From Thermodesulfovibrionia bacterium (GTDB lineage Bacteria > Nitrospirota > Thermodesulfovibrionia > UBA6902), in the NCBI GenBank assembly GCA_947259645.1, contig CAMYND010000039.1, positions 1-43,256 on the forward strand: 43,256 nucleotides of DNA. The letters run 5' to 3'. The notes beneath the pieces were generated by a model. The model saw only the letters and a list, made by a program, of their open reading frames with translations. It had not been told where the DNA came from and ran no database searches. Below are positions 5,583-42,344 of this stretch, piece by piece. Both the position numbers and the translations under genes were made by a program. Position 1 is the stretch's first letter. Every line of letters begins with the position of its first letter.

Positions 5583-5612
5583 CTGGTGTGTGCAATCTCT
5601 ATTCTTCAGCAT

Positions 5613-6025: not shown

Positions 6026-6748
6026 CTAATAGAACCTTTTTTGTCTTGATATTTTGCCGACTATCCATCCCACAAAAAACACACCTCCGCCGGCTAAGAA
6101 CCACCATATCATCTGTGAGCGCTTAAGATCATCATTCTCATTCCGGAGTCGATCAGTATCAGTTATCAATTCGCTGTTGGACCTTTTAAGACTGTCACGC
6201 TCTTTCACAATTTGAATAACATCTTTCGAATCCTTCATTAAGGCGTTATATCGTTCGGTAATCCCTTTAAGCTCTCGGTCGGTCTGTTCTGCCTTTCCTT
6301 CACTTGTGGACACGTTCTGCCTGAGATCCCTTATCATCTTGTTATGGTCTGACTTGGTTGCACTGAGTTGATTTTGAAGTGATCCGCTGTCTTCTTTGTA
6401 CTGTTTGATCTCTCTGTTTAATCGGGCTATCTTTCTTTCCAGACCCGCTATAATTACAGATTTTGGTGTTTCCCCGGTTATATATTGTTTCAGCGCCCAA
6501 CCCTCAATGCCGTCCTCTGTTATGACTCTCAGGTAACCTTCGCTCTCTTCGAGAATCTCAAGAGGAGTACCTGTTTTAAGCGTTTTAATAATTTTATATT
6601 GACTGCCCTTGCCTCCCCGCAGAGTAATAACAAGTTCATCAGACACATATTGGGTTTCGGCACAGACAATTCCAACAGACACGGTAAAAGAAAAAACCAT
6701 TATTAAAAAGATGATTAATTTTAATCGCAAGATTTGACTCATCCTCAT
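6026..6748 (-). CDS. Bacterial SH3-domain protein with coiled coil and C-terminal membrane anchor
   Basis: A 240-residue protein of the TIGR04211/YgiM type. The ATG at 6748 is chosen because GGAGGG precedes it; the longer frame has no such site. Order: signal peptide (about 1-31, ending VGIVCAE), SH3b domain (TQYVSDELVITLRGGKGSQYKI through GWALKQYI), a heptad-rich coiled coil (about 100-205), a transmembrane helix (MIWWFLAGGGVFFVGWIVG) and a basic tail. The family is tethered to the inner membrane with SH3 in the periplasm and is linked to envelope or surface polysaccharide functions in other bacteria. It is monocistronic. Confidence 0.82.
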   Translation of the reverse strand: MRMSQILRLKLIIFLIMVFSFTVSVGIVCAETQYVSDELVITLRGGKGSQYKIIKTLKTGTPLEILEESEGYLRVITEDGIEGWALKQYITGETPKSVIIAGLERKIARLNREIKQYKEDSGSLQNQLSATKSDHNKMIRDLRQNVSTSEGKAEQTDRELKGITERYNALMKDSKDVIQIVKERDSLKRSNSELITDTDRLRNENDDLKRSQMIWWFLAGGGVFFVGWIVGKISRQKRFY

Positions 6749-6988
6749 AGCTGCCCTCCACATAATAAAGCCACGTATGGCTGTTATAGTAAACACTATA
6801 CTATAAAGATTATATATGATAGGTATTTAAATGTTAAACAAAAACAAATAACCTCTCGCAAAGAGTGAGGCCGAATCTTTAATTGTGACAGATTACATAT
6901 ATCTGATTCGACATTATCGGTATAATCAATTATCATAAATATACGGAGCGCGAGCAGCAGAGCAAACGTATTCCGAAGGTGTGAGCAG

Positions 6989-9630: not shown

Positions 9631-9699
9631 AAGAAGGATAAAATAGTTTTTTCTCATTATTTATAGGCAATTATTGTTGGTCAGGCATAACTCCCTCAA

Positions 9700-9900
9700 C
9701 TGGTATGTCATCCTCCGGCCTGATGCTGAGGTTCCGGTAATTTAAATAAAAAATAGATTCCCCGATCAAGTCGGAGAATGACACCAATAGGGATGATTAC
9801 AAATATCTAATGAGGAAATGAGGACGGAGATTAACGATTGACGATTGACGATTGACGATTGACGAATGTTGGAGTAAGGAGGTGGTGTCAGGACTAGATT
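9700..9900. repeat. Repeat cluster: degenerate block, heptamer array and core element
   Basis: In the 326 bp spacer after the membrane protein gene. A degenerate relative of the 18.5 kb repeat block lies at about 9706-9785 (GTCATCCTCCGG and later ATTCCCCGA). At 9834-9868 four exact ACGATTG heptamers and one ACGAATG lie in tandem. A GGTGGTGTCAGG core follows at 9881-9892. No gene is visible. Confidence 0.75.
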
Positions 9901-9956
9901 TTACCGTTTTGCATGAAGATTGGAGACCTGAGACTCATCAACAATTTGTCACAAAA

Positions 9957-10319
9957 TCACTCGTAATAAATAAGCAGAGCGCCTGTTGAATCAGTCTCCT
10001 GGCTGAAAGAGGACGGTTCACTTAAAGGGACCTCAAGGATCAGGAGTTCGCTGCCTGCTGGCAGCCACGGGGCCCTCATTACCGGCAAAGTGTCATCTAT
10101 AACAATCGGAACTGCGGACGTGTTTTCTTTCTGAATCCATGAAGAAGTGCGGTTGCGATCCGCTATGCCGGAGCTGAGCGAACCATTTGCCACCTGATCA
10201 ATATCCGCTTTCATAAAAGGAGTCTTACTCAGCGGGGAGGCATTCGCGGGATCAGTTATCATAATAGCTAAACTTACTATCATCAAACATACGCTTGTTA
10301 ATTTGATCACTTTCTCCAT
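9957..10319 (-). CDS. Small secreted protein of unknown function
   Basis: A 120-residue protein starting at the ATG at 10319, where a signal peptide begins (MEKVIKLTSVCLMIVSLAIM, with likely cleavage after ANA). The mature part is polar, with no Cys, and a moderately hydrophobic C-terminal half (MRAPWLPAGSELLILEVPLSE) ending in TGALLIYYE. No family is recognised. The gene is alone; a longer upstream frame has no ribosome site. Confidence 0.5.
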   Translation of the reverse strand: MEKVIKLTSVCLMIVSLAIMITDPANASPLSKTPFMKADIDQVANGSLSSGIADRNRTSSWIQKENTSAVPIVIDDTLPVMRAPWLPAGSELLILEVPLSEPSSFSQETDSTGALLIYYE

Positions 10320-10725
10320 TTCATATTCTCTTTTTATTGCCTGAATCATCATACCAACACATTGCAAGACATTTATATGGGACTAGAGAGATGTTGTTTA
10401 TATAAAAGCAATTTTAATGCCAAATCTTAACAGATTGATTTTATAGATAAAATATCGAATTACTTATTTATTAAGTGTAAAATCATTTAATATTGTAAAC
10501 ACAATTGACACCTTGGCGTTTGACCTCTGATGTTTTGAGAAGCGGGGAAGGCGGGAGAGGAGGTTATGGGATCTCATGATTGGATGTTATGACGGCTCAG
10601 GCAGGTGGAATGGGTCTTTTATAAATGAGGATATTTTCATGGGGCAGATCCGTTGATATCTATTCTTTTATATGAAATGTCACGATAAAGGAATCAACCT
10701 TATTCATTTTTTGTATACTTAATTT
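10320..10725. other. Gene-free spacer containing a purine-rich repeat
   Basis: About 400 bp with no supported ORF. Its first part is AT-rich. Positions 10527-10585 (GAGAAGCGGGGAAGGCGGG, then GAGGAGGTTATGGGATC) match 12594-12652 with small indels, giving one more two-copy intergenic repeat. A TATACT at 10714-10719 ends 6 bases before the ATG of the DUF1284 gene. Confidence 0.6.
10714..10719 (+). promoter_or_regulatory. Possible -10 box immediately before the DUF1284 start
   Basis: TATACT ends 6 bases before the ATG at 10726 and there is no ribosome-binding site between them. If used, the message would be leaderless or nearly so. The -35 region is not convincing. Confidence 0.35.
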
Positions 10726-25269: not shown

Positions 25270-25755
25270 ATGCAAAGTGACAGCGGCAAACAGGCAGATC
25301 AGACCAAAGACAGGCATATCCTCGTGGCATTGGACAGGTCGGAGAATGCTAAAAAGGCAGCACTGTATGTGGCAGATTTTCTGGGCGGTATGCCAGGATT
25401 CCGGGTAACCCTTCTCAGTATAGTTCCAGAACCGTCAGAAGACTATTTTGAGACCGGTGAGCAACGGAAAGCCTGGATTGAAGAGGAAAGTTCCGGGGCA
25501 GAGAAACTGCTCCGAAACTACCGCGAAATGCTCATACAATCCGGTTTCAGTGAAGACAAGGTCAGGATGAAAGTGGATGTAAAGAACTGCCCATCCATCG
25601 CTGACTGTATTCTTGACGATCAGAAGAAGCTCGGATGCTGCACGATCGTCATGGGCAGGCGGGGGATATCGAAAAAAGAAGAGTTTCTCTGCGGCAGCAC
25701 GTCGAGCACGGTCCTGCATTGCGGAAAGAACTGCGCTGTCTGGGTGATCGAATAA
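25270..25755 (+). CDS. Universal stress protein (UspA family)
   Basis: A 161-residue Usp domain protein. The ATG at 25270 has a GGGAGGAAC site; a longer frame overlaps the kinase gene. HILVALDRSENAKKAALY forms the first strand and helix, and MGRRGISKKEEFLCGSTSS contains the ATP-binding pattern G-2x-G-9x-G-S. The protein is likely an ATP-binding stress regulator. Only 22 bp separate it from the kinase-like gene, so the two are probably coexpressed and may act in one stress pathway; that link is an inference. Confidence 0.9.
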   Translation: MQSDSGKQADQTKDRHILVALDRSENAKKAALYVADFLGGMPGFRVTLLSIVPEPSEDYFETGEQRKAWIEEESSGAEKLLRNYREMLIQSGFSEDKVRMKVDVKNCPSIADCILDDQKKLGCCTIVMGRRGISKKEEFLCGSTSSTVLHCGKNCAVWVIE

Positions 25756-25765
25756 ACAAGACCCA

Positions 25766-25837
25766 CGGGTGGTGGGCGGTGTCACTCATTTAAAGGATCG
25801 TTGTCAAGCAAAAAAGCACCCCTACAGGTGGTGTCAG
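25766..25837 (+). repeat. Two adjacent repeat-core copies
   Basis: GGTGGGCGGTGTCA at 25766-25784 and AGGTGGTGTCAGC at 25826-25837 follow the stress protein gene. The second runs straight into the 173-bp repeat block. Confidence 0.6.
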
Positions 25838-26006
25838 CTTAGCTACCTAAACCCTCTTGTCATCCTCCGGCTTGACCAGAGGATCCAGTATTTAAAGATA
25901 ACTCCAGATTCCCCGACACTTTTACTTAGAAAGCATAATGATTGTTCTTCATGATAAAAATAGCAATTTAGTACTTACTGAAATGCGTAAACCTGACACC
26001 GACCAT
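25834..26006. repeat. 173-bp repeat block, copy B (copy A at 18504-18676)
   Basis: Gap-free match to 18504-18676. The hairpin is slightly degenerate here (CCAGAGGAT in place of CCGGAGGAT). An inverted core ends the block. It is joined directly to the next heptamer-type and core copies. Confidence 0.88.
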
Positions 26007-26007
26007 T

Positions 26008-26077
26008 GATTTCGTCATTCAGCATTCGTGATTCGTCATTCGTTATTCTCTTCTGAAATGTGTAGACCTGACACCGG
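26008..26077 (-). repeat. Heptamer run plus inverted core
   Basis: TTTCGTCATTCAGCATTCGTG and following CATTCG units end in TTCTGAAATGTGTAGACCTG ACACC. This is the same modular order as at 19965-20022 and 26582-26630. Confidence 0.75.
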
Positions 26078-26186
26078 AACGATACTTCTTTATCGTAATT
26101 CGTAATAGATAATTAGTAATTATTGTTGCCTTCATTGTGTAGAATAAAACTCAAGTTGATAATCTCTACTCTAAGGAGTTGGCGAT

Positions 26187-26348
26187 ATGAAAATAACTAC
26201 AAAAATAATAATTCAACTGATTTGTTTAGGGATCGTTGATATCGTAATTCCAATACCCATACTCGGAATTATCCTTATATACGTTGTTCTTCAGAAACCT
26301 CCATGGTTCAGAGATGCGGTAAATAAGATTTATGGACATAACCGCTGA
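26187..26348 (+). CDS. Small hydrophobic membrane protein, 53 residues
   Basis: Found by reading the spacer. The ATG at 26187 has an AAGGAG site 8 bases upstream. The product starts MKITTKIIIQLICLGIVDIV, is followed by IPIPILGIILIYVVLQ and ends in a short polar tail (WFRDAVNKIYGHNR). It would span the membrane once or twice. No family is recognised. A perfect 21-bp palindrome lies 35 bp downstream. Confidence 0.6.
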   Translation: MKITTKIIIQLICLGIVDIVIPIPILGIILIYVVLQKPPWFRDAVNKIYGHNR

Positions 26349-26382
26349 AAATATGTGATCCTTTTCTCCATATTCTTATTAT

Positions 26383-26403
26383 TATCGAGGTCCGACCTCG
26401 ATA
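26383..26403. promoter_or_regulatory. Perfect 21-bp palindrome
   Basis: Arms TATCGAGGTC and GACCTCGATA around a single C. No T-tract follows, so a dimeric protein-binding site is as likely as a terminator. It lies after the small membrane protein gene, and I see no gene of the right orientation immediately next to it. Confidence 0.5.
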
Positions 26404-26487
26404 GAGTATGTATACGCAGTGGCCAATAGAGCCAAAAGCCACCCGCCTGTGATTGTTCATCTTTGCTATCAGGATATTTTAACGTAA

Positions 26488-26507
26488 GGGCGTAGCATGC
26501 TGCGCCC
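26488..26507. repeat. REP-like palindrome
   Basis: GGGCGTAGCATGCTGCGCCC is an almost perfect inverted repeat of the widespread intergenic palindrome kind. Only one copy was noticed in the window. Confidence 0.5.
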
Positions 26508-26545
26508 CTACAATAATTATGTTAACCCTCACACTTCCTTTCAAT

Positions 26546-26631
26546 CCTGAAGCAGCCAATGGCGGGATAGTTAAGTCTTGATTTCGTCATTCGTTATTCT
26601 CTTCTGAATTGCGTAGACCTGACACTACCCA
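26546..26631. repeat. Composite repeat, copy B (copy A at 19921-20034)
   Basis: Shares the CCTGAAGCAGCCAATGGCGG block, TTTCGTCATTCG units and the terminal GTAGACCTGACACTACCC core with copy A. Its right half lies inside the 3' end of the VF530 gene and encodes that protein's last 15 residues. Confidence 0.85.
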
Positions 26632-26829
26632 TAAGTCCTCGACTTTCTTCCTTGCCCAAGGCGTCTTTCGCAGGAACTTGAGGCTGGACTTCACTGAGGG
26701 ATCGTTGATGAAGCACTGGATATTAATACGTTTGCCTAACGCGTCCCAGCCATAATGCTCAACCAGGCTGTTCACAATCTGCTCCAGGGTCACGCCATGC
26801 AGTGGGTTATTGGGTTGTTGTTCGCTCAT
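26587..26829 (-). CDS. VF530 family (DUF2132) DNA-binding-like protein with repeat-encoded C-terminus
   Basis: An 80-residue protein. Residues 1-66 match the VF530/DUF2132 family ([56 protein letters not shown]), a small all-helical fold proposed to bind DNA. The last residues ([15 protein letters not shown]) are translated from the intergenic composite repeat, so the native end has been replaced. It follows the methyltransferase gene by 9 bp and is probably cotranscribed. Families such as this are common in gamma-proteobacteria, consistent with acquisition. Confidence 0.85.
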
Positions 26830-26838
26830 GAGCCGGCC

Positions 26839-27495
26839 TTAGTCCTTCTTATTGAGCAATATCACATCATTGGCGACGAAGTTGAGTTCGGCATTGAAGC
26901 GCTGCGCGAGGTATTCAAAGGTGCTCTGACTATAAAAGCAAATATGCGTCATATCGCGAATATAGTGCCACTGACTGAAAGCGTGTTTAGCAATCACCAG
27001 CTTAGTCATAATACCCAGCCAACCGCCTCGTTTTAACATCGTAAACAATGCTGCAAAATCCTTATTGGGATCGTGCAAATGTTCCACTACTTCAGTGGCG
27101 CATATGAAATCATATTTTTTATAAAACACCGAAGGATCGTTGTAATAAAATGGGTCATAGAGATCCATCTGCTGACATCGCTCTTCTAATAGGACTGACA
27201 GGGTCGGACCTGGCCCACAACCAAAATCCAATCCTTTTTGTTTTGAATCCAGTTTCTCCAATAGTGGCATACTTAATCGAGATAAGAATTGGCGATAGCC
27301 CTGATCCTGTGCATCGTTTTCATGCAAATCATAAGTTGCCCTTTCATCTTCAGCGCTCAGCCAATAGCGCTTCGGGACAAAGACCAATTTACAATTAAAA
27401 CAGCGCAGGTAGATTCTTTTTTTATCCTCGAAATATGAATCTATATCTTCACTACTGCACAAGGGACAATGGGTCTCATCACATTTGGTTTTCAT
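26839..27495 (-). CDS. Class I SAM-dependent methyltransferase with N-terminal Cys pairs
   Basis: A 218-residue protein. CPLC at about 11-14 and CFNC at about 32-35 probably form a zinc ribbon. Then follow the SAM-binding motif LDFGCGPGPT, an acidic strand end (MDLYDPFYY) and ICATEVVEHLHDPNKDF, as in the Methyltransf_23 group. A metal-ribbon type of this kind often modifies small molecules or sugars; the substrate is unknown. It starts 138 bp after the attC-like site at 27633-27767 and shares a transcript with the VF530 gene, so both may be cassette cargo. Confidence 0.82.
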   Translation of the reverse strand: MKTKCDETHCPLCSSEDIDSYFEDKKRIYLRCFNCKLVFVPKRYWLSAEDERATYDLHENDAQDQGYRQFLSRLSMPLLEKLDSKQKGLDFGCGPGPTLSVLLEERCQQMDLYDPFYYNDPSVFYKKYDFICATEVVEHLHDPNKDFAALFTMLKRGGWLGIMTKLVIAKHAFSQWHYIRDMTHICFYSQSTFEYLAQRFNAELNFVANDVILLNKKD

Positions 27496-27632
27496 CTATT
27501 TCGGGCCTATTATCCCAAATCACAGCCATATATTTAGCTCCATACGATTGGGAGCAATAAAACTTGCTGTAACAATTACACCGTCATGCAGTTCATATTA
27601 AATTTCGAGTAATGACATATGCACCTATACTC

Positions 27633-27767
27633 ACATAACGATGCACTGGCTGACGAGTGCCACTGTATGTCTTCAAATTGCATCTAAACTAATTTGCAAT
27701 ACTCAAACCAACTATTTGCTGATAAAGTGTCTTGTTGTACTCGTTCATGTCCAGTAGCTGGTTATGT
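27633..27767 (-). other. attC-like recombination site E
   Basis: A 135-bp imperfect palindrome. The ends are perfect complements: ACATAAC at 27633-27639 and GTTATGT at 27761-27767. Inner arms also match: ACTGG at 27645 with CCAGT near 27751, and CGAGT at 27654 with ACTCG near 27739. This layout is that of an integron attC on the minus strand (R boxes outside, L boxes inside, a long variable middle). It lies 79 bp after the stop of the triple-repeat gene and before the methyltransferase gene. Confidence 0.6.
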
Positions 27768-27845
27768 TTCATTTATTATGCTATTGTCGGTGTTTTCCCC
27801 AGAATGGGAAGCGCAATGTACTATTAATATGTTATATATGTTGTG

Positions 27846-28751
27846 CTACCAACCGGAAACAGTGAATGACCATTTAGTTGGTTTTCTGTCAGTAAGAGTA
27901 TATTCAATAAAAGGTTTACATTGTCCTCTTTCTATGTGATCGACTGTTACCACTTCATTCCAAATGATATTATTCTTACTACTCAATGCATAAAACCTTA
28001 TGAATACATCGTTACGGGTCTCCTTAGAGTCATTGCAAATTTTGCCCTTAAAACGTTTATCCTTAAATGAAATATCTTTATAGGATATTTCATCGCTAAT
28101 TCTCCCGGATTTAATATTTTCATTACTAATTACTTTATTTATACCAAACAATATATTTGAGGGGTCTTCGAAAAGGATAGAAAATATGTGTCTTGATATT
28201 TCGTGACAGTCTGCAGGCGGCAATTCGTTAATTACAATATCCTTTCTCCAGACAATTTCTTTATTATTGGCTATGCCGAATATGCTTATCATGAGATCAT
28301 CTAGTGTATTTCCGCTTCGGTTGCATATCGTTGCCTCAAGCTCTCGTCCCTTAAGTATAATATTATCAAAGTAAATGTCCTGATTACGATTATTTGTATC
28401 AATAAACTCAGAGTCTTGTCCGGTGAAATAAGTGAATTTCAATTTATAAGGTCTCTTCAGAATATCAGCGATTTTGATAAAATGTGAGCATTGCATGGGA
28501 CCAATTTTTTCTACAAGAATTGTTTCAGTCCATAGCTCCTTACCGCTGTAGTTAACTGCAATTGCGTTGACGAAGACTTCGTTAAAATAACGACTTGTTT
28601 TATTACAAAACTCCCCTTCTATTCTTCCGTTTACCATTCTTACATTTTCGCATTCAAAATTATCATACGCAAGAATTGGAGAAGAGAATAAAATAAAATA
28701 TAATAGAGGACTAGCGATTGTTGCAATAATGATAAATGATGGTTTTTTCAT
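27846..28751 (-). CDS. Secreted protein with three tandem homologous domains
   Basis: A 301-residue protein with a signal peptide (about 1-28, cleavage near PILAYD). Three domains of about 85-95 residues repeat one pattern: a charged strand, (E/K)GxxCN, a V/I-rich strand with F or A, a Trp (ELWTETI, EIVWRKDIV, NIIWNEVVTV) and a Cys near CSHF, CHEI or CKPF. Each domain thus has two Cys, at similar spacing (GEFCN...CSHF; ATICN...CHEI; GKICN...CKPF), suggesting one disulfide per domain. It resembles Ig-like or FxLYD-like secreted folds, but I cannot name it. The AT-rich composition and the flanking attC-like site suggest a cassette. Confidence 0.6.
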   Translation of the reverse strand: MKKPSFIIIATIASPLLYFILFSSPILAYDNFECENVRMVNGRIEGEFCNKTSRYFNEVFVNAIAVNYSGKELWTETILVEKIGPMQCSHFIKIADILKRPYKLKFTYFTGQDSEFIDTNNRNQDIYFDNIILKGRELEATICNRSGNTLDDLMISIFGIANNKEIVWRKDIVINELPPADCHEISRHIFSILFEDPSNILFGINKVISNENIKSGRISDEISYKDISFKDKRFKGKICNDSKETRNDVFIRFYALSSKNNIIWNEVVTVDHIERGQCKPFIEYTLTDRKPTKWSFTVSGW

Positions 28752-28812
28752 GTTTATCGATATTGAAAACTATCATCCTGCAATATATTGGGAATTAATG
28801 ATTCTCACGAAT

Positions 28813-29025
28813 TACGATGTACCCCCTACCCTTAACCCCGTTTCGTGCTGCTTACGTAGTGAAGACTTTAGAAATGATGTGGCTATTATAACCACCGGTT
28901 TTTTGAGAAAGCAATGATAAATGCATTTGAGCTTTCTTAATTGTCCCGCCATTGAATGTTTCAGGATTGCGCTAAATTAAGACAGAGAACGACGATTGAC
29001 GAATGACGAAATGAAAAAACATCAG
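28813..29025. repeat. Long intergenic repeat block, copy B (copy A at 2078-2297)
   Basis: Matches copy A along about 210 bp. At its left it is preceded by a 60 bp segment (28758-28817) that recurs at 31303-31367, and at its right by a GGCTTGAATGTGTAG tail shared with 31446-31460. It fills the 383 bp spacer before the Bax inhibitor gene; no gene is seen in it. Confidence 0.8.
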
Positions 29026-29134
29026 CAAGAGGCTTGAATGTGTAGCTGGTGGAGTCAAACCTACATTATACATTCTACGGGATTTTCTAAATGTATAATG
29101 CAGGATTGATACCATTATTATTAGGACGCAATCC

Positions 29135-29881
29135 TTACCTTCTGCTTCTCAGCTTCGCAAGCAATCTGAGCATCTCAATATAAAGCCAGACAAGCGTCAC
29201 TATCAATCCGAAGGCTGCGTACCATTCCATGAATTTGGGGGCACCCCTTTCGGACCCGTGCTCGATAAAGTCAAAATCCAGGACCAGGTTCAAGGCCGCA
29301 ATTACGACGACTGCGAGACTGAAAAGGATTCCGATCGGACCGCTGTCGTGGATGAAGGGGACCGTGATACCGAAAAAACCGAGGATAATGCTCGCTACGT
29401 ATATAAGCATGATGCTCCCGGTCGCGGCAACGACACCGAGCTTGAAATTTTCCGTTGCTTTTATGAGTCCCGATCTATAGGCGAAAAGCAGCGCGAAGAG
29501 GGTCCCGAACGTCAGGCCGACAGCCTGAATGACGATCCCAGGATAGCGGGCTTCAAATATGGAAGAGATCCCGCCGATAAACAACCCTTCAAGCAGCGCA
29601 TAAATCGGGGCCGTTATTGGTGCCGCGGTTTTTTTAAATATGGTAATAAGCGCAACAACTAAACCGCCGATCGCTCCCCCTATCATCCAGGGCATCACCG
29701 CAGCCGGATTGCCGGAGGTGTAAAACATGTTCCAGGTCCACCCGGCGGTAAGCAGCAGGCAGCAGAGCAGTATTGCCGTTTTATTCACCGTCCCCTGGAT
29801 AGTCATCGACTCCGCAGTGTCTGCCCGCGAAGTGTACTCCTGAAATGTTTTGGTATTTAATGCGGGATTTGCAGTTCTCAT
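29135..29881 (-). CDS. Bax inhibitor-1 family membrane protein
   Basis: A 248-residue, seven-helix protein of the bacterial Bax inhibitor-1/YbhL group (pfam12811 subgroup). It opens with the family block NPALNTKTFQEYTS and TIQGTVNKTAILL; later ALLEGLFIGGISSIFE, GLTFGTLFALLFAYRSGLIK and the acidic site in NLVLDFDFIEHG are typical. Members in other organisms are calcium-leak or pH-sensitive channels. An AAGGAGCG site precedes the ATG. It lies between attC-like site A and a repeat block, so it may be either a cassette gene or the chromosomal neighbour. Confidence 0.88.
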   Translation of the reverse strand: MRTANPALNTKTFQEYTSRADTAESMTIQGTVNKTAILLCCLLLTAGWTWNMFYTSGNPAAVMPWMIGGAIGGLVVALITIFKKTAAPITAPIYALLEGLFIGGISSIFEARYPGIVIQAVGLTFGTLFALLFAYRSGLIKATENFKLGVVAATGSIMLIYVASIILGFFGITVPFIHDSGPIGILFSLAVVVIAALNLVLDFDFIEHGSERGAPKFMEWYAAFGLIVTLVWLYIEMLRLLAKLRSRR

Positions 29882-29974
29882 TTTAACGCTCCTTATATTT
29901 ATCGGAATGATATTTCCAGAATCGAATGGGCATATCGTCAGTTATCATCAGAGCTTGAATACTATGTTTTTTTG

Positions 29975-30092
29975 AAGATAGCCTGAGTCAGTGATGCAGA
30001 CCATGTAGCATATAAACAGGGTGAAAACCGATTTGCAGAATATAAACTAATGCGTCCTCAAATCGTTACCGCTGGCCTGCATTCACTTAGAT
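29975..30092 (-). other. attC-like recombination site A
   Basis: The TAA stop of the DUF5661 gene lies in the left box (minus-strand ATCTAAG). The far half (GTCTGCATCACTGACTCAGG) is nearly the same as in site C. The final GTTRRRY box is lost: the sequence turns to TATCTTC exactly where site C has GTTAGGT, as expected at the edge of a decaying array. Confidence 0.5.
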
Positions 30093-30530
30093 GCCTTTAA
30101 TCTGATCTTCTACCGCTTTATTGAGTGCCTTTTGTGCTTCTATTAGTTTTATATATTTAGATTCTATTTTCTCCATATTCTTAGATTTGATTGCCTTTAA
30201 TAAGTCGCCCTCTATTTCAGCAACGTCAATTCTACGATAGTAATCCATTGTTTCTTTAAGATGGGCTATGACAATCTTACCCGTTAAGACTGGATGGTTA
30301 TTTGTCACATTTGCATCATCAAAACGAGTACCGTGCTCAAGCTCAACTTCCAACCCTATCCTAAACTCTTCAAGGGGAATATCCATTGATTTTGTATTTA
30401 CAATTTCAAGGATTGTGGTTGCTTCTGTGTCTGAAACCGATGGGTCTGTCTTTTTCGTCCAATCACTCAACCCAATTTCTTTGCAAACTTTTCTTACCTC
30501 TTCAGTAGTAACGTATTCATGCAATTTCAT
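30087..30530 (-). CDS. DUF5661 family protein
   Basis: A 147-residue cytoplasmic protein with an AAAGGAGAG site. The middle block (EEFRIGLEVELEHGTRFDDA, NVTNNHPVLTGKIVIAHL and DYYRRID) matches DUF5661, whose function is unknown but which is frequent in phages and mobile regions. Residues 115-147 form a Lys/Glu-rich helix. The start codon lies 22 bases after the GTTAAAT box of attC-like site B and the stop lies in site A, so the gene is bounded exactly as an integron cassette. Confidence 0.78.
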   Translation of the reverse strand: MKLHEYVTTEEVRKVCKEIGLSDWTKKTDPSVSDTEATTILEIVNTKSMDIPLEEFRIGLEVELEHGTRFDDANVTNNHPVLTGKIVIAHLKETMDYYRRIDVAEIEGDLLKAIKSKNMEKIESKYIKLIEAQKALNKAVEDQIKGI

Positions 30531-30551
30531 AATGCTCTCCTTTTTTGATGC

Positions 30552-30683
30552 ATTTAACGACTAGCTTACTGATGCGTAACCCAACTTATATCAGTAAGCC
30601 AATAAACCAATTTGCACCTCTCAAAAAATCGCTCTCAAAATGGTCGTTGCTGGTACGCATTCAAGTGCAGCAACTGGTTAGAA
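30552..30683 (-). other. attC-like recombination site B
   Basis: A 132-bp imperfect palindrome. On the minus strand it begins TTCTAAC just after the BrnA stop and ends GTTAAAT (a full GTTRRRY match). Inner arms share GATGCGTA and TACGCATTC. The DUF5661 gene starts directly after the end box. It is part of a 238-bp segment that recurs at 34066-34303. Confidence 0.65.
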
Positions 30684-30688
30684 TTTTC

Positions 30689-30913
30689 TTATGATGCTTT
30701 TTCAAGGCGCTCAGCTACCCATACCTTTATGATTGATTGACGAGGAACCCCTAATCTTTTTGCCTCTTTATCCAGTTGCTGTATCATCCACAGAGGAAAA
30801 TCTACATTAACACGCTTTTGTTCCTGATCAGGCCTTCTTGCCTTGGAAGTGTCAAGATTCTTGGTGATATCTTCACCTTTATCAAATTTCTTCTCAATCT
30901 CTTTAGCTTTCAT
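30689..30913 (-). CDS. BrnA/CopG-type antitoxin
   Basis: A 74-residue antitoxin. The first 30 residues are polar (toxin-binding region). The C-terminal part is a ribbon-helix-helix domain: RVNVDFPLWMIQQLDKEAKR and LGVPRQSIIKVWVAERLEK. It pairs with the BrnT-type toxin gene upstream, whose end it overlaps by 11 bp, and should neutralise the toxin and repress the operon. attC-like site B follows its stop by 6 bases. Residues 43-74 recur almost unchanged at 34207-34305. Confidence 0.88.
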   Translation of the reverse strand: MKAKEIEKKFDKGEDITKNLDTSKARRPDQEQKRVNVDFPLWMIQQLDKEAKRLGVPRQSIIKVWVAERLEKAS

Positions 30914-31163
30914 ATATCATAACCTCCTCTTTTCTGGACCAGCGCACAGAAATTATTCTTATGTTTTCTCCTCTGTACGTAATGATCCCTGACCAGTGCT
31001 TTCCTAATATCTGTCCAATTACCAAATACCGTGGTTCATCAGACGTTTTAATTGGAATTTCAATTAAGTCAGGGGCTTTCCATAATTCCTGGGCTTCAAT
31101 AAAATCTATCTCATATTTTTCTTTATTTCTTTCCCTTTTGTTACTATCATACTCAAATCTCAT
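30903..31163 (-). CDS. BrnT family ribonuclease toxin
   Basis: An 86-residue RelE-like RNase of the BrnT family: FEYDSNKRERNKEKYEIDF at the start, then EAQELWKAPDLIEIP, RYLVIGQILGKHWSGIITYR and ENIRIISVRWSRKEEVMIYE, with the basic RIISVRWSRKEE block typical of the active site. Its message is probably cut by the toxin under stress and controlled by the BrnA partner 3' to it. No Shine-Dalgarno precedes the ATG; a -10 box lies close upstream. Confidence 0.88.
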   Translation of the reverse strand: MRFEYDSNKRERNKEKYEIDFIEAQELWKAPDLIEIPIKTSDEPRYLVIGQILGKHWSGIITYRGENIRIISVRWSRKEEVMIYES

Positions 31164-31172
31164 TGTATAGTT

Positions 31173-31200
31173 ATTATGCCTTAATTATATTAATTAGCAA
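31173..31200 (-). promoter_or_regulatory. Promoter for the first BrnT-BrnA operon
   Basis: Minus-strand TTGCTA (31200-31195) and CATAAT (31178-31173) are 16 bp apart. The expected transcription start falls about 3 bases before the BrnT ATG at 31163, so the transcript would be almost leaderless. Confidence 0.45.
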
Positions 31201-31302
31201 TATTTTATTTTATTTTTCAATTCTAGCAAATATCATCTTGCAGTCACTAATTCCTGAAAAATCGACTGTTACTAATATTAAATATTTTACTGTCACTATA
31301 TC

Positions 31303-31460
31303 CAATATTGAAAACTTTCATTTTGTAATATGCTGAATATTAATGATTCTCACGAATTACGAATTACGAATTACGAATTACGATTGACGATTGACGATTG
31401 ACGATTGACGAACGACGAATGACGAAATGAGGAGACATCAGCGAGAGGCTTGAATGTGTA
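31303..31460. repeat. Heptamer array with flanking repeat modules
   Basis: A left module (31303-31367) is shared with 28758-28817. It is followed by the longest heptamer run in the window: ACGAATT four times, ACGATTG four times, then ACGAACG, ACGAATG and ACGAAAT (about 31352-31428). A right module (GGCTTGAATGTGTAG) is shared with the end of the 28813 block. It occupies most of the 474 bp spacer. Confidence 0.85.
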
Positions 31461-31498
31461 GCACGCTGAGTAACTGAACGACGCGGACTTAAGATAGT

Positions 31499-31533
31499 TG
31501 GTGGTGTCAGGTCTACGATTGTTTGGTGTCAGG
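31499..31533 (+). repeat. Double repeat core
   Basis: A full GGTGGTGTCAGGTCTAC copy at 31500-31516 is followed at once by a second partial copy (GGTGTCAGG, 31524-31532). Confidence 0.7.
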
Positions 31534-31637
31534 TAAATTCAGATCAACGGCAGTAATTTCTAAAACAAAGCAAGAACCTGATTAAAGGACAGCTCCACCG
31601 GATACACTGGACTAGTACAGAGACAAACAGCAGATTA

Positions 31638-32996
31638 TCACTCCAGCATGTACTGGATACTGGATGTCGCTGTCGGGTAGGCATAGATGGCATTCCTGAC
31701 CTGACCTGCTGTCAGTCCGTTCTGCATCGCAAGGGCAAAGACATTAATCAGGTCATCTGCATGACTGTCCAGAATATGGGCTCCGATTATTTTTTCTGTT
31801 CCGTTTTCAATGAGCACCCTGAATCCTGCACAGTGCTCCCCAACACGCTGATTGTGCAGCCAGACCGATGTGTCCCTTTCGTTTACACGAAAATCCAGAC
31901 CTTGTTTCACGGCAACCTCCTCCTGCATCCCTACTGATGCCAGCCGGGGAAGGGCAAAAACAACATGAGGCACACAGCTGTAGTCTGGTCGCGAGGTACC
32001 CGCTCCATGGACAAGGTTTTCCGCAGCAACCCTGGCCTCCTTCATTGCTACCGGAGTAAGAGGGACACCTCCCGCAACTGCATCACCAGCAGCATAGACC
32101 TGACTGTTTGAAGTGCTTTGTAGGCAGCTGTCCACCAGGATACCGTCCGGTGAGTATTCGACTCCCCCTGTTTCGAGATCCATATCCTCTATATCCGGGA
32201 TCCTGCCCGCTCCATGGACAACGAGATCAGCGGCATACTCCTGCTTCCCAGCTGCTGTCTCTGCGATAATCGCAAGCGATCCGTTACGCTTCTCGATCTT
32301 TTTTGGTTCAGCCTCAAGCGCAAAGGTAATGCCAGCTGCCGCCGATGCCTCTACGAGCTTTTCGGCCAGGACCGGATCGAAGCCCTTGAGCACCCGCCTT
32401 CCCCGGCTCATTATGGTCACATCGCTCCCGCAACGGGCAGCCAAATGGGCATACTCAAATGAAATAAAACCTCCGCCGACAAAAAGTATCCTTTGAGGAA
32501 GTTTCTCAAGATATAAAAACTGACCGCTATCAGTTATGTGATTTTCACCTTCAATGCCCAGCGGACGGGGCCGTGCACCTGAGCCGATATGAATATATCT
32601 GCCCTCCAGAAGAGTGTCTCCTGCCTGAATCCTGTCCCTGCCAACAAAACGGGCCGCTCCGAAGTAAAGGTCGATTCCCGATTCCCGGAGGGACCGCTCT
32701 CCTTCTTCAGGATAGGCACCGGTCAGCTGGTTCTTGAACTTCATTAACCGTGACCATGAAACCGACCCGGGCATGTCAGCAACACCGGCGGCTTTCATTC
32801 GGCTGTTGAAGTCAGCTAGTTCAGCCCCTGTGATAAGGACTTTTTTCGGAACACAGCCCCAGATAGCACAGGTACCGCCCACTTTGCTTTTTTCAACAAT
32901 AGCCACCCGCCATCCAGCCCGTGCCGCTACTTCTGCAACAATTTTCCCTGCATCGCCGGTACCGACAACAACAAGGTCATATTTCTTCCCGTCCAT
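31638..32996 (-). CDS. NAD(P)/FAD-dependent disulfide oxidoreductase (glutathione reductase-like)
   Basis: A 452-residue flavoprotein of the class I pyridine nucleotide-disulfide oxidoreductases. The ATG at 32996 has AAGGAGG; the longer frame does not. It has YDLVVVGTGDAGK (FAD Rossmann), the redox motif GGTCAIWGCVPKK with two Cys, FVGGGFISFEYAHLA (NAD(P) site), VYAAGDA (second FAD motif) and a C-terminal dimerisation domain. The usual active-site His-Glu near the C-terminus is not obvious: the end reads AYPTATSSIQYML, with Tyr-Pro-Thr in place of the HPT of the family. Substrate unknown. It is not a cassette gene by its flanks, although it lies within the cassette region. Confidence 0.88.
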   Translation of the reverse strand: MDGKKYDLVVVGTGDAGKIVAEVAARAGWRVAIVEKSKVGGTCAIWGCVPKKVLITGAELADFNSRMKAAGVADMPGSVSWSRLMKFKNQLTGAYPEEGERSLRESGIDLYFGAARFVGRDRIQAGDTLLEGRYIHIGSGARPRPLGIEGENHITDSGQFLYLEKLPQRILFVGGGFISFEYAHLAARCGSDVTIMSRGRRVLKGFDPVLAEKLVEASAAAGITFALEAEPKKIEKRNGSLAIIAETAAGKQEYAADLVVHGAGRIPDIEDMDLETGGVEYSPDGILVDSCLQSTSNSQVYAAGDAVAGGVPLTPVAMKEARVAAENLVHGAGTSRPDYSCVPHVVFALPRLASVGMQEEVAVKQGLDFRVNERDTSVWLHNQRVGEHCAGFRVLIENGTEKIIGAHILDSHADDLINVFALAMQNGLTAGQVRNAIYAYPTATSSIQYMLE

Positions 32997-33037
32997 AAAT
33001 TCGCCCCTCCTTTTCACACCGCATAATAAGGCCGTGG

Positions 33038-33323
33038 TTAACTGATATGGGTTGCCCGGCCCTGAAGTGAGCGTCGGGTATTTTTTGAAAACGGGGACCA
33101 AGCTTCAGGAAACTGTAGAATAAGTTGCATGGATTTATAAACTTCTTCACCTGAAATTGCTTTTTCTCTGCCACTTCTGAAATCTGTAATTCTTTCCTCT
33201 GCTTCCTTAGCCCATAATTCATCAATTTCTTTGGTAAGTTGATCAAAAACAGATTTTTTCAAGTGAACCAGACGGTTCAATAATAATTATCCCCTCGTCT
33301 CTTAAGATTTCAATTGAAATCAT
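33038..33323 (-). pseudogene. Mosaic remnant: STAS N-terminus, antitoxin C-terminus and ParE fragment
   Basis: Reading from an ATG at 33323 with AAGGAG, the first 23 residues (MISIEILRDEGIIIIEPSGS...) are the start of a SpoIIAA-like STAS protein. A one-base shift in the A-run near 33255 ends that frame after 26 residues. In the other frame the text continues as STAS (SVFDQLTKEID), then becomes the C-terminus of an addiction-module antitoxin (ELWAKEAEERITDFRSGREK, AISGEEVYKSM), and then a ParE/RelE toxin piece (QFPEAWSPFSKNTRR). Three gene pieces are thus fused; none is functional. The remnant begins 20 bp after attC-like site C. Confidence 0.6.
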
Positions 33324-33343
33324 TATATTCTCCTTGATTTGAG

Positions 33344-33473
33344 ACCTAACGCCTGCGTCGGTGATGCAGACCATGAAGCATGTAAACGTGCTTAAAACTG
33401 ATTTGCACTTCTTAAATCTTTGCCAGCAAAAAAGGTCCCCGCTGTCACGCATTCGATCCAATGGCTGTTTATA
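33344..33473 (-). other. attC-like recombination site C
   Basis: A 130-bp imperfect palindrome between the CopG antitoxin stop and the mosaic remnant. On the minus strand it ends in GTTAGGT, a perfect GTTRRRY. The left box is degenerate (TATAAAC). Inner arms match as GGTGATGC and GAATGCG with offsets. It has 20 bp leading to the next start codon with a ribosome site, as in gene cassettes. Confidence 0.6.
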
Positions 33474-33746
33474 TCAAGTCTTTTTTTCAGTAAGGCGACC
33501 TGATATAAACTTGTGCAGTATGCTCGAAATCAGTGTTTGATAGGGAAGTCCTTCTTCAACTGCCTTTTTTTGAAGTCCAACCAGATCTTTCTCGGAAATC
33601 CTGATATTAACTCTCTTGTCCTTGCGAAATGTTGCCTTGGCATATTCCTGGTATTTTTTTATTTTCCCTTTGGCTCCACGAACAGATTTCCACTCCCCTT
33701 TTTCTACTGATTCAAGTATTGTTTTTTCTTCTTTACTCATTTTCAT
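33474..33746 (-). CDS. CopG/BrnA-type antitoxin
   Basis: A 90-residue antitoxin related to COG5304. The first half (EEKTILESVEKGEWKSVRG and KKYQEYAKATFRK) is polar and helical; the second half is a ribbon-helix-helix domain (RVNIRISEKDLVGLQKKAVE, EGLPYQTLISSILHKFISGR). It follows the toxin gene by 1 bp, so translational coupling is likely, and it should repress the shared promoter through the palindromes at 34018-34039. attC-like site C starts at its stop codon. Confidence 0.85.
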   Translation of the reverse strand: MKMSKEEKTILESVEKGEWKSVRGAKGKIKKYQEYAKATFRKDKRVNIRISEKDLVGLQKKAVEEGLPYQTLISSILHKFISGRLTEKKT

Positions 33747-33747
33747 C

Positions 33748-34020
33748 TCAATCTCCCAAATACTTTTTAGTCATCTTCCGACTGGGGATAATGGTCTTTA
33801 AAAAAACAATCTCACTATCCTCGACAAAAGGGACAAGATACACATAGTCATCTATGTCAACGATGAATATATTCTGATTAGGATATTTCGATTTATTGGG
33901 ATGTTCAATGACATCAAGCAATCCATTATGCATTATGCAGAAAACAACCTCTTCAAATGATATGCCTCTGTCTTTGATTAATTCTTCGTTTTTCTCGTTG
34001 TTCCAATCAAAGTATTTCAC
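33748..34020 (-). CDS. BrnT-superfamily toxin
   Basis: A 90-residue protein paired with the CopG antitoxin. KYFDWNNEKNEELIKDRG and ISFEEVVFCIMHNGLLDVIE, then IFIVDIDDYVYLVPFVED and IVFLKTIIPSRKMTKKYL, match the BrnT-like toxin group usually found with COG5304 antitoxins. Family members are RNases that inhibit translation. The start is a GTG at 34020. No ribosome-binding site precedes it and the promoter's expected start point coincides with the GTG, so it may be leaderless. Confidence 0.8.
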   Translation of the reverse strand: MKYFDWNNEKNEELIKDRGISFEEVVFCIMHNGLLDVIEHPNKSKYPNQNIFIVDIDDYVYLVPFVEDSEIVFLKTIIPSRKMTKKYLGD

Positions 34021-34055
34021 AATTTTATTGTGCTACAATGTGTGCCTATTGTCAA
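34018..34055 (-). promoter_or_regulatory. Promoter and operator of the second BrnT-CopG operon
   Basis: Minus-strand TTGACA (34055-34050) and CACAAT (34032-34027) are 17 bp apart. Two inverted repeats overlap the -10 and the start: CACAAT/ATTGTG at 34018-34032 and ATTGT/ACAAT at 34027-34039. They are placed where a ribbon-helix-helix antitoxin would bind to autoregulate. Confidence 0.6.
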
Positions 34056-34069
34056 CTTTATTATTTAAG

Positions 34070-34201
34070 ATATAACGACAAGCATACTGATGCGTACGTC
34101 AACCTGTATCAGTAAGCCAATAAACCAATTTGCACCTCTCAAGAAATCGCTTTCAAAATGGTCGTTGCTGGTACGCATTCAAGTGCAGCGGCTGGTTAGA
34201 A
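34070..34201 (-). other. attC-like recombination site D
   Basis: A 132-bp imperfect palindrome nearly identical to site B. On the minus strand it begins with TTCTAAC after the BrnA-stump stop and ends in GTTATAT, a one-mismatch GTTRRRY. The next gene on that strand is the BrnT-superfamily toxin. Together with site C it bounds a 726-bp cassette. Confidence 0.62.
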
Positions 34202-34206
34202 TTTTC

Positions 34207-34305
34207 TTATGATGCTTTTTCAAGGCGCTCAGCTACCCATACCTTTATGATTGATTGACGAGGAGCCCCTAATCTTTTTGCCTCTTTATCCAGTTGCTGT
34301 ATTAT
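34207..34305 (-). pseudogene. BrnA antitoxin C-terminal stump
   Basis: The last 32 codons of a BrnA antitoxin, ending EAKRLGAPRQSIIKVWVAER LEKAS, with one Val-to-Ala change from the intact copy at 30689-30913. The upstream part is replaced by the 3' end of the secreted protein gene at 34305. No start codon remains. The toxin gene is gone. Confidence 0.8.
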
Positions 34306-34814
34306 TATTCTTCTATTCCAGGTTGAATTGCTTCATACACAAAACTCAAGGGTGTAGCTACGGGCGTTTCAAAAGACAGCAATGCTTCTTGTGCCGGCGC
34401 TACTTCAAGATTATGACTGGTGATCCCAATACAGGATCCACGTCGAGGAAGTACGCTGTTGAGTTGAACATTTGCTGGCTCCGCAGACTCATGAAAATAA
34501 AAGTTATCTTGATTTTTTATAAGTCTATTTCTGCTTAATCTGTAATAGATATATGCAGGTCCTGTACAGTCAGTGTTTTCAAAATATAAGTAGTCCCCGT
34601 AAAAATTGCCATCATGAGTAAGAATAGCTGTTTTCTCATACGATGGAATGAGTATTTGGACAGCAATGCCATCCACTCCATTGTAGAGAAGCGTCCCTAA
34701 ATACTGACCGTCTCCGTCATACACACTCACTTCTGCCTGTGATTTAGTTGTACCAGTAATTAAAAAGACCGCTGAAACGGTAAGGACGACAACGAATATT
34801 CTAATTGTCTTCAT
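34305..34814 (-). CDS. Secreted protein of unknown function
   Basis: A 169-residue protein with a GGAGGATATC site and a signal peptide (about 1-27, cleavage near SQAEV). The mature part is rich in beta strands: VYDGDGQYLGTLLYNGVDGI, YFENTDCTGPAYIYYR and RGSCIGIT. Cys83 and a second Cys near residue 127 may pair. Other bacteria encode proteins with the same YDxxGxxxG and ENTDCTG pattern, but the function is unknown. The C-terminus abuts the BrnA stump, and a CTGTTGG-type repeat lies 80 bp upstream of the ABC operon end. Confidence 0.6.
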   Translation of the reverse strand: MKTIRIFVVVLTVSAVFLITGTTKSQAEVSVYDGDGQYLGTLLYNGVDGIAVQILIPSYEKTAILTHDGNFYGDYLYFENTDCTGPAYIYYRLSRNRLIKNQDNFYFHESAEPANVQLNSVLPRRGSCIGITSHNLEVAPAQEALLSFETPVATPLSFVYEAIQPGIEE

Positions 34815-34894
34815 AACGATATCCTCCTGCTTGTCCGCCTTGTTTTGTGAGAAAGAAGTGCCTATAAATATTATATCACGGTTTTTTAACCATG

Positions 34895-34914
34895 CACTGT
34901 TGATTTGCTGTTAG
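34895..34914 (+). repeat. CTGTTGG-type repeat
   Basis: CACTGTTGATTTGCTGTTAG, with CATGCA before it as at 17381; it is the most divergent of three copies and lies 33 bp downstream of the ABC permease stop. Confidence 0.6.
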
Positions 34915-34946
34915 TATAAATTGGAGGGAAGGTAAGGGTTCAATCA

Positions 34947-36473
34947 TCATGCCATTGATTTTAGGCGTAATCCTTTCGGCACGAGCAGCCTTTCTGCAAG
35001 TTCAAATGCTCCCTGAACGAGCAACGCCAGAATTGCTGCCGGCAGTGCTCCCTGAAGAATCAGTCCCACATCATCCAGACGAATGCCTGTGAGAATGGGC
35101 TGTCCATATCCACCGGCGCCGATAAGCGCACCAAGAGTCGCTGTTCCTACATTAATGACAGCAGACGTTTTTATGCCGGCCAGAATGGACCGGGACGCCA
35201 TGGGAACTTCTACTATTCTGAGGCGCGCACCGGCAGAAAGCCCTATCGCTTCAGATGATTCCCGGATATGCAGAGGTATATCATGGATTCCGGTATACGT
35301 ATTACGAACAATAGGCAAAAGACTGTAGAGGAAAAGTGCTGCAATGGCAGGGGGGCCTCCAATACCGAGAAGGGGGATCATAAACACAAGGAGAGCTAAG
35401 GAGGGGATGGTCTGGATGATACCGACACAGCTGAGAATAAACTGGCCCAGTTTCGCCTTCTTCGCGGCAATAATCCCGAGCGGTATTGATACGCTGATAG
35501 CAGCTATCAGCGATATGCCTACCATGAAAAGGTGCTCATATGTATGCTGCCAGAAACGACTACTTATTTTTTCCCCGCTCACCTCTGTATCTATCGATAA
35601 GCGGGCAGAAAGAAAATCAGCGGCAATTCTGGCTTCCGGTATTTTGTCCAGTTTGGCTCTCGCATTCATCGTTATCATTTCCGGCTCAGAGATTAATCCA
35701 TTGAGCTGGGAAAGGGCAGACACAATCCCCGGCGCGCGGGCTTCCAGATCATCACGATAAAGAATCAGGGCTTTATATTCAGGGAAATGCCTTAAGTCAT
35801 CTGTCAGCGTCTGCAGCTTGTAATACTGGATTTCAGCATCGGTCGCATAAAGGTCCATCACGTCGATATCGCCGCTCTGCAGTCCGCGATATGCAAGATC
35901 ATGATCCATTCCGCGAACATTTTTTTGGGGCAGGGAGTAGCGCTCTTTCAGGCTCGGCCAGCCGTCGCCGCGGGCCATAAATTCATTTCCAAAACCCAGG
36001 CTCAGTTCAGGATGATTCTGTAGATCAGAGATCCTTCGAATCCCGAGCTTCTTCGCTACTTCAGGCCTCATGCCTATCACATATGTATTGTTGAATCCTA
36101 ACGGCCCGGTCATCCGAATACCCTTTTCGGAGAGGGCACGACGAATTTCCTCTTCACTCTCTATTCCGAGACCCGCGAATATTTCCCTGCTTATGGTGCC
36201 GGTATATTCCGGGTACATGTCTATTTCACCCTTCAACAGGGCACTCCAGAGAACACGGGTGCCTCCCAGCTCCCTTCGGTGGATCGGCTTCAGCGCTCTG
36301 TCTTCAGCAAGATGGGAGACAATCTCTCCCAGGATTACGGATTCAGTAAATTTTTTTGACCCTATCGTTACGGTGACGGACTGTTCGCCATATAAAACAA
36401 GTGGAGTAAACAGGGTCGTCATACAAAGAATGCAGATAATACTGAAATAATTTCTGATCATCTTCATAGTCAC
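34947..36473 (-). CDS. Osmoprotectant ABC transporter, fused substrate-binding and permease protein
   Basis: A 508-residue fusion. Residues 1-30 form a signal peptide or first helix, and about 32-290 the OpuAC-type glycine betaine/choline-binding domain (VTIGSKKFTESVILGEIVSH, GGTRVLWSALLKGEIDMYPE, YTGTI). The last 200 residues are the permease with the ABC permease EAA-like loop (SSEAIGLSAGARLRIVEVPM) and GALIGAGGYGQPILTG. Members import betaine-type solutes. It starts at GTG overlapping the stop of the ATPase gene by 4 bp, so the two genes are translated together. An ATG 6 bp further in is the alternative start. Confidence 0.92.
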   Translation of the reverse strand: MTMKMIRNYFSIICILCMTTLFTPLVLYGEQSVTVTIGSKKFTESVILGEIVSHLAEDRALKPIHRRELGGTRVLWSALLKGEIDMYPEYTGTISREIFAGLGIESEEEIRRALSEKGIRMTGPLGFNNTYVIGMRPEVAKKLGIRRISDLQNHPELSLGFGNEFMARGDGWPSLKERYSLPQKNVRGMDHDLAYRGLQSGDIDVMDLYATDAEIQYYKLQTLTDDLRHFPEYKALILYRDDLEARAPGIVSALSQLNGLISEPEMITMNARAKLDKIPEARIAADFLSARLSIDTEVSGEKISSRFWQHTYEHLFMVGISLIAAISVSIPLGIIAAKKAKLGQFILSCVGIIQTIPSLALLVFMIPLLGIGGPPAIAALFLYSLLPIVRNTYTGIHDIPLHIRESSEAIGLSAGARLRIVEVPMASRSILAGIKTSAVINVGTATLGALIGAGGYGQPILTGIRLDDVGLILQGALPAAILALLVQGAFELAERLLVPKGLRLKSMA

Positions 36474-42010: not shown

Positions 42011-42042
42011 TAGATTAGAGTTTTAGAAGTTTTTGTCGTTTA

Positions 42043-42082
42043 CAAGGCCACGAAGATTTTTTGATCTGTGTGGCCTTTTTTA
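42043..42082 (+). terminator. Terminator-like hairpin inside the cold-shock leader
   Basis: GGCCAC at 42046-42051 pairs with GTGGCC at 42070-42075, with an inner AGAT/ATCT, and six Ts follow. It lies between the candidate promoter and the coding region and ends 50 bp before the start codon. Confidence 0.75.
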
Positions 42083-42131
42083 TTGTTGAGACCTTCTGAG
42101 ATTTTAATTTAATGATAAGGAGGTAAGCAAT

Positions 42132-42332
42132 ATGAACCAGGGAACTGTAAAATGGTTTAACGACAGCAAAGGTTTTGGATTTATTTCGTGTGAAGACGGA
42201 AGCGACGCTTTTGTGCATCATACGTCAATCCAGGGCGACGGATTTAAATCGCTTGTCGAAGGTGACTCAGTCAGCTTTGATACTGAAAATGGCGAAAAAG
42301 GCCCAAAGGCTATTAATGTCGTAAAACTGTAA
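42132..42332 (+). CDS. Cold-shock (CspA-family) protein
   Basis: A 66-residue OB-fold nucleic acid chaperone with AAGGAGGTAAGCAA ahead of the ATG. RNP1 is KGFGFI and RNP2 is [21 protein letters not shown] and the C-terminal PKAINVVKL complete the fold. It binds single-stranded RNA and unwinds structure in the cold. The Val of the usual VFVH is replaced by Ala (DAFVHH). Confidence 0.95.
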
Positions 42333-42344
42333 TTAACCGGAAAG

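Follow-up and report, generated by a model that had tools for sequence, protein, structure and literature searches.

A protein with three FxLYD-like units, probably exported, as likely cargo of a partly decayed integron cassette cluster in a Thermodesulfovibrionia bacterium

Introduction

A gene on the minus strand at 27846-28751, encoding a 301-aa and probably secreted protein of three tandem FxLYD-like units, is probably the cargo of an integron cassette whose attC recombination site (site E, 27633-27767, minus strand) directly follows it. On this reading, which we consider likely as a whole, the locus is a partly decayed integron cassette cluster, and the protein is an FxLYD-like exported binding or structural protein. 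Its functional part taken alone is tentative, at somewhat less than even confidence, and draws on the protein sequence and a predicted fold. The window analysed is the whole 43,256-nt stretch of contig CAMYND010000039.1 (GenBank assembly GCA_947259645.1), and coordinates given without a contig or locus name refer to it.

Site models and sequence sets

Five sites of the window, A, B, C, D and E, all on the minus strand, align over their full length. Model R1 was made from sites A, B, C and E and searched in 37 genomes of the family, the source genome included, with 91 candidates scored per genome; on its E-values, which are rough, it gave matches at E <= 1 in 36 of the 37 genomes and at E <= 1e-5 in 31. 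The source genome has 27 matches at E <= 1, including a row on contig C21. This other attC row (L078, G000:C21, 267-10949) contains several cassettes that resemble PIN-domain toxin genes by eye.

Model R2 was made from 18 sites of other genomes, hand-picked from the upper part of the R1 list. It contains no window sequence, though the search that yielded its sites used R1, to which site E contributes as one of four. In these 18 sites 90.6% of cells are paired, and changes on both sides occur in 12 of 25 pairs; cells with such a double change number 49, where shuffles average 15.0 and none of 500 comes as high.

The cassette set comprises 61 ORFs, each flanked in the fetched loci by two successive attC sites with less than 3 kb between them. 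It was built from 84 of 88 R1 hits, leaving out those of loci L083, L085 and L077 and the weakest of L089. For profile comparison (hhalign), the profile of the protein's units was set against four FxLYD domains from the same bacterial family.

The attC sites

R2 gives site E 106.4 bits (E 1.7e-24) when the minus strand is read, against 23.0 bits for the plus strand. From this score we take site E to be an integron attC site by homology, the site of the window closest to those of the relatives, its better strand being that of the upstream gene. The other window sites score 78.9 (C), 71.4 (A), 67.9 (B) and 58.1 bits (D). Taken by themselves, four of the window sites covary weakly (their paired percentage is reached in 26 of 500 shuffles and their covariation score in 22 of 500), so that the case for attC rests on the 18 sites of the relatives. 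In those genomes such sites share contigs with IntI genes scoring over the curated cut-off, in opposite orientation (for example G003:C34, G007:C51, G014:C20, G027:C100 and G035:C202), and 18 of the 37 genomes of the family have an IntI over this cut-off. By sequence comparison, site E belongs to the attC family that adjoins intact integron integrases in related genomes.

The 135 bp of site E form an inverted repeat that is predicted to fold. Read on the gene strand, it consists of R'' (ACATAAC), a 5-nt spacer, an L box, a variable stem-loop, a second L box and R' (GTTATGT). The ends are complementary at 7 of 7 positions; the spacer is mostly unpaired and is followed inward by the pairs ACTGG/CCAGT (5 bp), TGA/TCA and CGAGT/ACTCG, and the 5' (left, gene-strand) arm is longer by 3 nt. 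The consensus of attC R boxes is RYYYAAC/GTTRRRY. Each R box of site E matches it at 6 of 7 positions, with the core AAC/GTT exact and one base departing. Site E thus shares with the attC sites of chromosomal integrons the type of ends, the unpaired spacer, the L boxes with unequal arms, the long variable loop, the position after a gene and, in relatives, the location beside IntI. It differs from them in that its contig yielded no integron integrase and that its cluster is broken by chromosomal-type genes.

The bottom strand of site E folds slightly better than the gene strand (-37.1 versus -33.1), as it does at site A, whereas at B, C and D it does not. Site E leads the window in a scan for R boxes and arm energy but does not stand out from three shuffled sequences, so the proof of the site rests on homology and not on the palindrome. 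Rfam gave no match in 25500-35000 nor anywhere else in the window. An earlier note on this DNA, made from the letters alone, had described an inverted repeat with perfectly complementary 7-bp ends at exactly 27633-27767, had called it attC-like and the best such site in the window, and had placed it after its gene. The repeat is there as described, the model from the relatives gives it the highest score in the window, and gene and site stand in the correct orientation, both on the minus strand.

Four further attC sites, one of them degenerate, lie upstream of site E on the same strand. The degenerate one is site D (29975-30095 by alignment, 29974-30105 by R2), both R boxes of which are unrecognisable. 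Site C (30552-30683) follows a BrnT toxin gene and a 74-aa antitoxin-like ORF, site B (33344-33474) follows a BrnT-like/CopG-like pair, and site A (34070-34201) lies within a copy of the site C region.

The duplicated segment is 236 bp long (30552-30787 and 34070-34305, 94% identical) and carries the 3' end of a CopG/BrnA-like antitoxin ORF with its attC; the 34-kb copy forms a stub that follows an unrelated gene for a signal-peptide-type protein. A small ORF at 33038-33280 looks like a toxin-antitoxin gene of RelB/RelE type that was truncated where the oxidoreductase segment begins or ends. Short repeats at 26477-26510 and 26542-26575, one of them with a palindrome, lie beside VF530 and methyltransferase genes, and the second recurs inverted at 28936-28969.

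The integrase

No integron integrase was found on the window's contig. The sole IntI-type integrase of the genome that exceeds the curated cut-off is at 9086-10357 of locus L013 (G000:C103). Compared with three relatives it is without 37 internal residues, including the GKGxKDR stretch, which is the location of the catalytic Lys in tyrosine recombinases; further upstream in its frame, the N-terminal part of the integrase is matched a second time, weakly. Contig C103 showed no attC. Beside this gene are another tyrosine recombinase and a gene that is presumably transposase-like.

Judged from its sequence, the C103 integrase is most likely inactive. Since it is without the 37 residues, the cassettes are probably fixed, unless an IntI comes in trans; and as the assembly is in 131 contigs, a missed IntI gene is possible.

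The three-unit protein

The stop codon of the gene lies 78 nt before site E on the same strand, the canonical order of gene, then attC. The N terminus (residues 1-28, MKKPSF...SSPILA; 28668-28751, minus strand) is signal-peptide-like in sequence and by a crude hydrophobicity filter, from which we infer that the protein is probably exported via Sec. Three units follow, all defined by their mutual alignment: unit 1 at 28422-28667 (C49, W74, C88 and an extra C34), unit 2 at 28134-28385 (C143, W168, C182) and unit 3 at 27849-28094 (C239, W264, C278).

Compared in pairs, the units give Smith-Waterman scores of 66, 87 and 105, whereas shuffles average about 25 and none of 2000 reaches any of the three. 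The units are well diverged, unit 3 being 19% and unit 1 12% identical to unit 2 in the alignment; the spacing C-x24-W-x13-C is identical in all three. The signal peptide and three tandem domains that the earlier note had proposed are therefore present, at least as a signal-peptide-like N terminus and as three segments that do align, failure to align having been its own counter-test. Its description of one Trp and two Cys per unit at similar spacing understates the match in spacing and falls short in the count: unit 1 has the extra C34, and unit 3 also has W294 and W301.

Domain family and fold

The NCBIfam model NF038353 (FxLYD domain) matches the protein in two stretches with 21.9 bits (E 1.2e-4) against a curated cut-off of 23. 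Among the single units, unit 3 matches alone (E 0.032), with no match for units 1 and 2; six-frame searches of the source genome with this model gave no match, nor did Pfam match the protein at E 10. In the profile comparison the unit profile matches FxLYD with a probability of 82.3 and a score of 32.9, where the best of 200 column shuffles reaches 15.9, the reversed profile 10.9 and the best of 60 other cassette proteins, with their first 30 residues removed, 16.2.

The units share with the FxLYD domain a similar length, a core of the 'GxIxNxS' type and the match between profiles. They differ in falling under the cut-off, in an added conserved Cys pair and Trp, in occurring as three tandem copies, and in the motif: FxLYD gives the domain its name, and it is absent from the units, in which the corresponding strand reads FVNAIAVNYSG, MISIFGIANNK and FIRFYALSSKN. 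By sequence we call the units FxLYD-like and do not assign them as members of NF038353, because its curated cut-off was missed. The earlier note had not recognised the family; this can now be replaced by an FxLYD-like type, under the cut-off as it is.

A model of a single unit, predicted from three alignment rows with unit 2 as the first, is a beta sandwich (pLDDT 81.9, pTM 0.67), which supplies the structure prediction that the earlier note had proposed; the full-length model from a single sequence is poor (pLDDT 51.6). The unit model has six strands (residues 4-12, 15-22, 28-38, 44-55, 59-66 and 77-84). In this predicted structure C21 falls near the end of the second strand and C60 near the start of the fifth. 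Strands 2 and 5 are neighbours in an Ig-type sheet, and a disulfide between these positions is accordingly likely in the model: each unit would probably be closed by one disulfide, running from the Cys before a conserved Asn at the end of strand 2 to the start of strand 5.

That the units belong to another family of Ig-type fold (DUF1425-like, CARDB-like or new), with no more than a general fold in common with FxLYD, is an unlikely but serious alternative. The missed NF038353 cut-off and the missing motif speak for it, as do the structure comparisons, in which the best Foldseek match is the DUF1425 protein 3o0l (E 7.4e-3, TM 0.61) and VIA-align puts GH2 sandwich domains first (Z 10.4). These Foldseek matches are weak and mixed, none reaching E <= 0.001, and Z values of 8-10 are common to many unrelated sandwiches; 3o0l and the GH2 domains share the beta-sandwich fold with the units, but the statistics are weak, no sequence similarity to them was shown and their contexts are unrelated. 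Against this alternative stands the profile score to FxLYD, double the best value among the shuffles and the other cassette proteins compared, and we retain the FxLYD-like assignment.

Distribution

A protein search of 199 other relatives, including one other genome of the genus, gave no convincing match; its three non-self matches (E 0.0015-0.0055), two of them running through stop codons, were judged to be chance. The unit profile gave one match in 229 other genomes of the class (E 0.007, across three stops), no convincing relative, and in a sample of 395 genomes of the phylum, 394 besides the source genome, its own match stood alone at E <= 0.001. No relative was found in genome contig collections (two scans), viral contigs, plasmids and phages, and the PDB profile search yielded no usable one. 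PHROGs gave one match, at E 0.075, and PADLOC none.

By sequence, then, the protein is an orphan at the search depths used. The earlier note had proposed a profile search with one unit and a look for the same gene beside attC sites elsewhere; the profile has been run, and it found no relative among the 394 phylum genomes in which such a gene could be placed. Nor was the gene seen in a fixed chromosomal context, which that note had named as evidence against its proposal, in the 199 other relatives, a result that reflects absent relatives and not compared contexts.

The 5' side of the gene

Between attC D and the three-unit gene lie a gene for a BaxI_1 family membrane protein, apparently of chromosomal type (29135-29881, minus strand), and, adjoining the three-unit gene, a repeat block of 383 bp (28752-29134, minus strand). 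With these two in place the cassette's 5' side is not clean, and a simple edge seems to be lost. From the start codon to the next attC (D) there are 1224 nt and another gene, the third-largest gap of 61, and the R2 scan found no attC between BaxI and the three-unit gene.

The same contig carries further, partial copies of the repeat block (2076-2297, 31305-31362 and 31407-31462), and two other contigs have shorter ones. The pair at 31.3-31.5 kb stands between a chromosomal-type pyridine nucleotide-disulphide oxidoreductase gene (31638-33101) and the BrnT gene. In two places the block stands between a chromosomal-type gene of higher GC content and an AT-rich cassette gene. The GC content is 0.332 in the three-unit gene, 0.349-0.36 in other cassette genes and 0.517 in BaxI. 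We infer that chromosomal-type DNA was inserted into the cassette row at two places.

Three further genomes of the family have BaxI. By blastn, the DNA that the window has in common with G011 covers 29133-29950 (BaxI with its leader); it breaks off at the stop codon of BaxI on one side and some 25 bp short of attC D on the other. The BaxI stretch is likewise shared by the fetched contig of G001, while that of G011 matches the window over another 37 bp, at 36196-36232. A 324-bp stretch of the window (42015-42335), without an Rfam match, is 78% identical in G008 (L077 15000-15320), where it lies about 0.7 kb from BaxI, against 12 kb here. No empty site could be demonstrated in the comparison of synteny with the relatives that carry BaxI.

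It is fairly unlikely, with this 5' side in view, that the gene was never captured by an integron and is a local, non-cassette gene left beside a lone attC remnant by rearrangement at the repeat blocks. The lack of an attC between BaxI and the gene, the 1224-nt gap and the recurrence elsewhere on the contig of the block directly upstream are what such a history would leave. Yet gene and site E are on one strand and 78 nt apart, the GC content of the gene is near that of the neighbouring cassette genes, and the 199 other relatives, the one of the same genus among them, have no convincing match to it. We therefore keep to the reading of the gene as a cassette whose 5' side was altered.

Secreted proteins as cassette cargo

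The earlier note regarded secreted proteins as unusual cassette cargo, a view that finds no support here. By a crude filter, 14 of the 61 cassette ORFs have a signal-peptide-like start and no membrane segment further on; two resemble PIN-domain proteins by reading and are false, which leaves about 12 of 61, the window gene included. PMC9668308 calls secreted cassette cargo common in bacteria. Secreted cargo thus does not look unusual, and the three-unit protein would be ordinary cassette cargo.

A relative, G005, carries a second exported protein of FxLYD type in a cassette (G005:C50). This lipoprotein with an FxLYD domain (355 aa, L101:5604-6671) lies between attC 6695-6823 and attC 5458-5587, starting 23 nt after the one and stopping 16 nt before the other, a clean cassette. 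It is like the three-unit protein in being exported, of FxLYD type and in an attC cassette of the same family; it differs in being longer, with a single FxLYD match at its end, in its lipoprotein-type start and in having no Cys pair in the FxLYD part. The identical 355-aa protein, with the same attC scores, occurs in G135, of another family (L106, G135:C81, 545-1910). Recent transfer or mis-binning of its contig may account for that copy, which was not counted as a second case. Scanning 14 FxLYD loci in 13 genomes of the class with R2, with flanks of at most about 1.5 kb on each side beyond which an attC would be missed, located attC sites only at the G005 locus and its G135 copy. A literature search found nothing on the FxLYD domain, and nothing joining integron gene cassettes or attC with immunoglobulin-like domains.

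Cargo of this kind might act otherwise than as a structural or adhesive protein: once secreted it could serve in inhibition or immunity, for example towards a protease or an envelope-acting toxin of a competitor, which we think improbable. Exported cargo is proposed in PMC9668308 to serve interactions with the surroundings, and the unit has a weak fold match to the Bacillus proteinase inhibitor 3isy (E 1.9e-2). This inhibitor, however, superposes badly (rmsd 12.3), PADLOC gave no match, and among the Pfam-scanned neighbours no effector-type gene lies directly beside the three-unit gene.

As to the site itself, a terminator or chance palindrome in place of attC E, in keeping with a palindrome and energy scan that does not beat three shuffles, is in practice refuted by the 106.4 bits from R2, a model without a window site, and finds no Rfam match in the window to lean on.

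Proposed history and meaning

What we propose is a small, partly decayed cassette cluster on a contig without an integrase. Site E, folded as the bottom strand, would once have been recombined by IntI, carrying the three-unit gene in. Later, insertion or rearrangement may have placed the BaxI-like gene and the repeat block between the gene and attC D. By now the cassette would be fixed, the only IntI of the genome over the cut-off being without its 37-residue internal stretch. The protein, after Sec export, would consist of three Ig-type FxLYD-like sandwiches, each probably with one disulfide. Its most likely role would be a non-enzymatic one, that of a rigid protein for binding or structure located in the envelope or at the surface.

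On this account an uncharacterised and probably exported protein is tied to integron cargo and given a likely domain type, which takes one protein out of the 'unknown function' share of cassette cargo. Both the attC model for the whole family and the list of cassettes suggest that cassettes of this group regularly carry secreted proteins. A bolder proposal, which we hold to be doubtful though worth stating, is that the protein founds a disulfide-stapled branch of FxLYD (fixed C-x24-W-x13-C) spread by integrons, and that exported Ig-type proteins are a recurrent cargo reshaping the cell surface of the family. If true, this would provide an example, open to testing, of single-gene cassettes as the vehicles in which surface proteins move.
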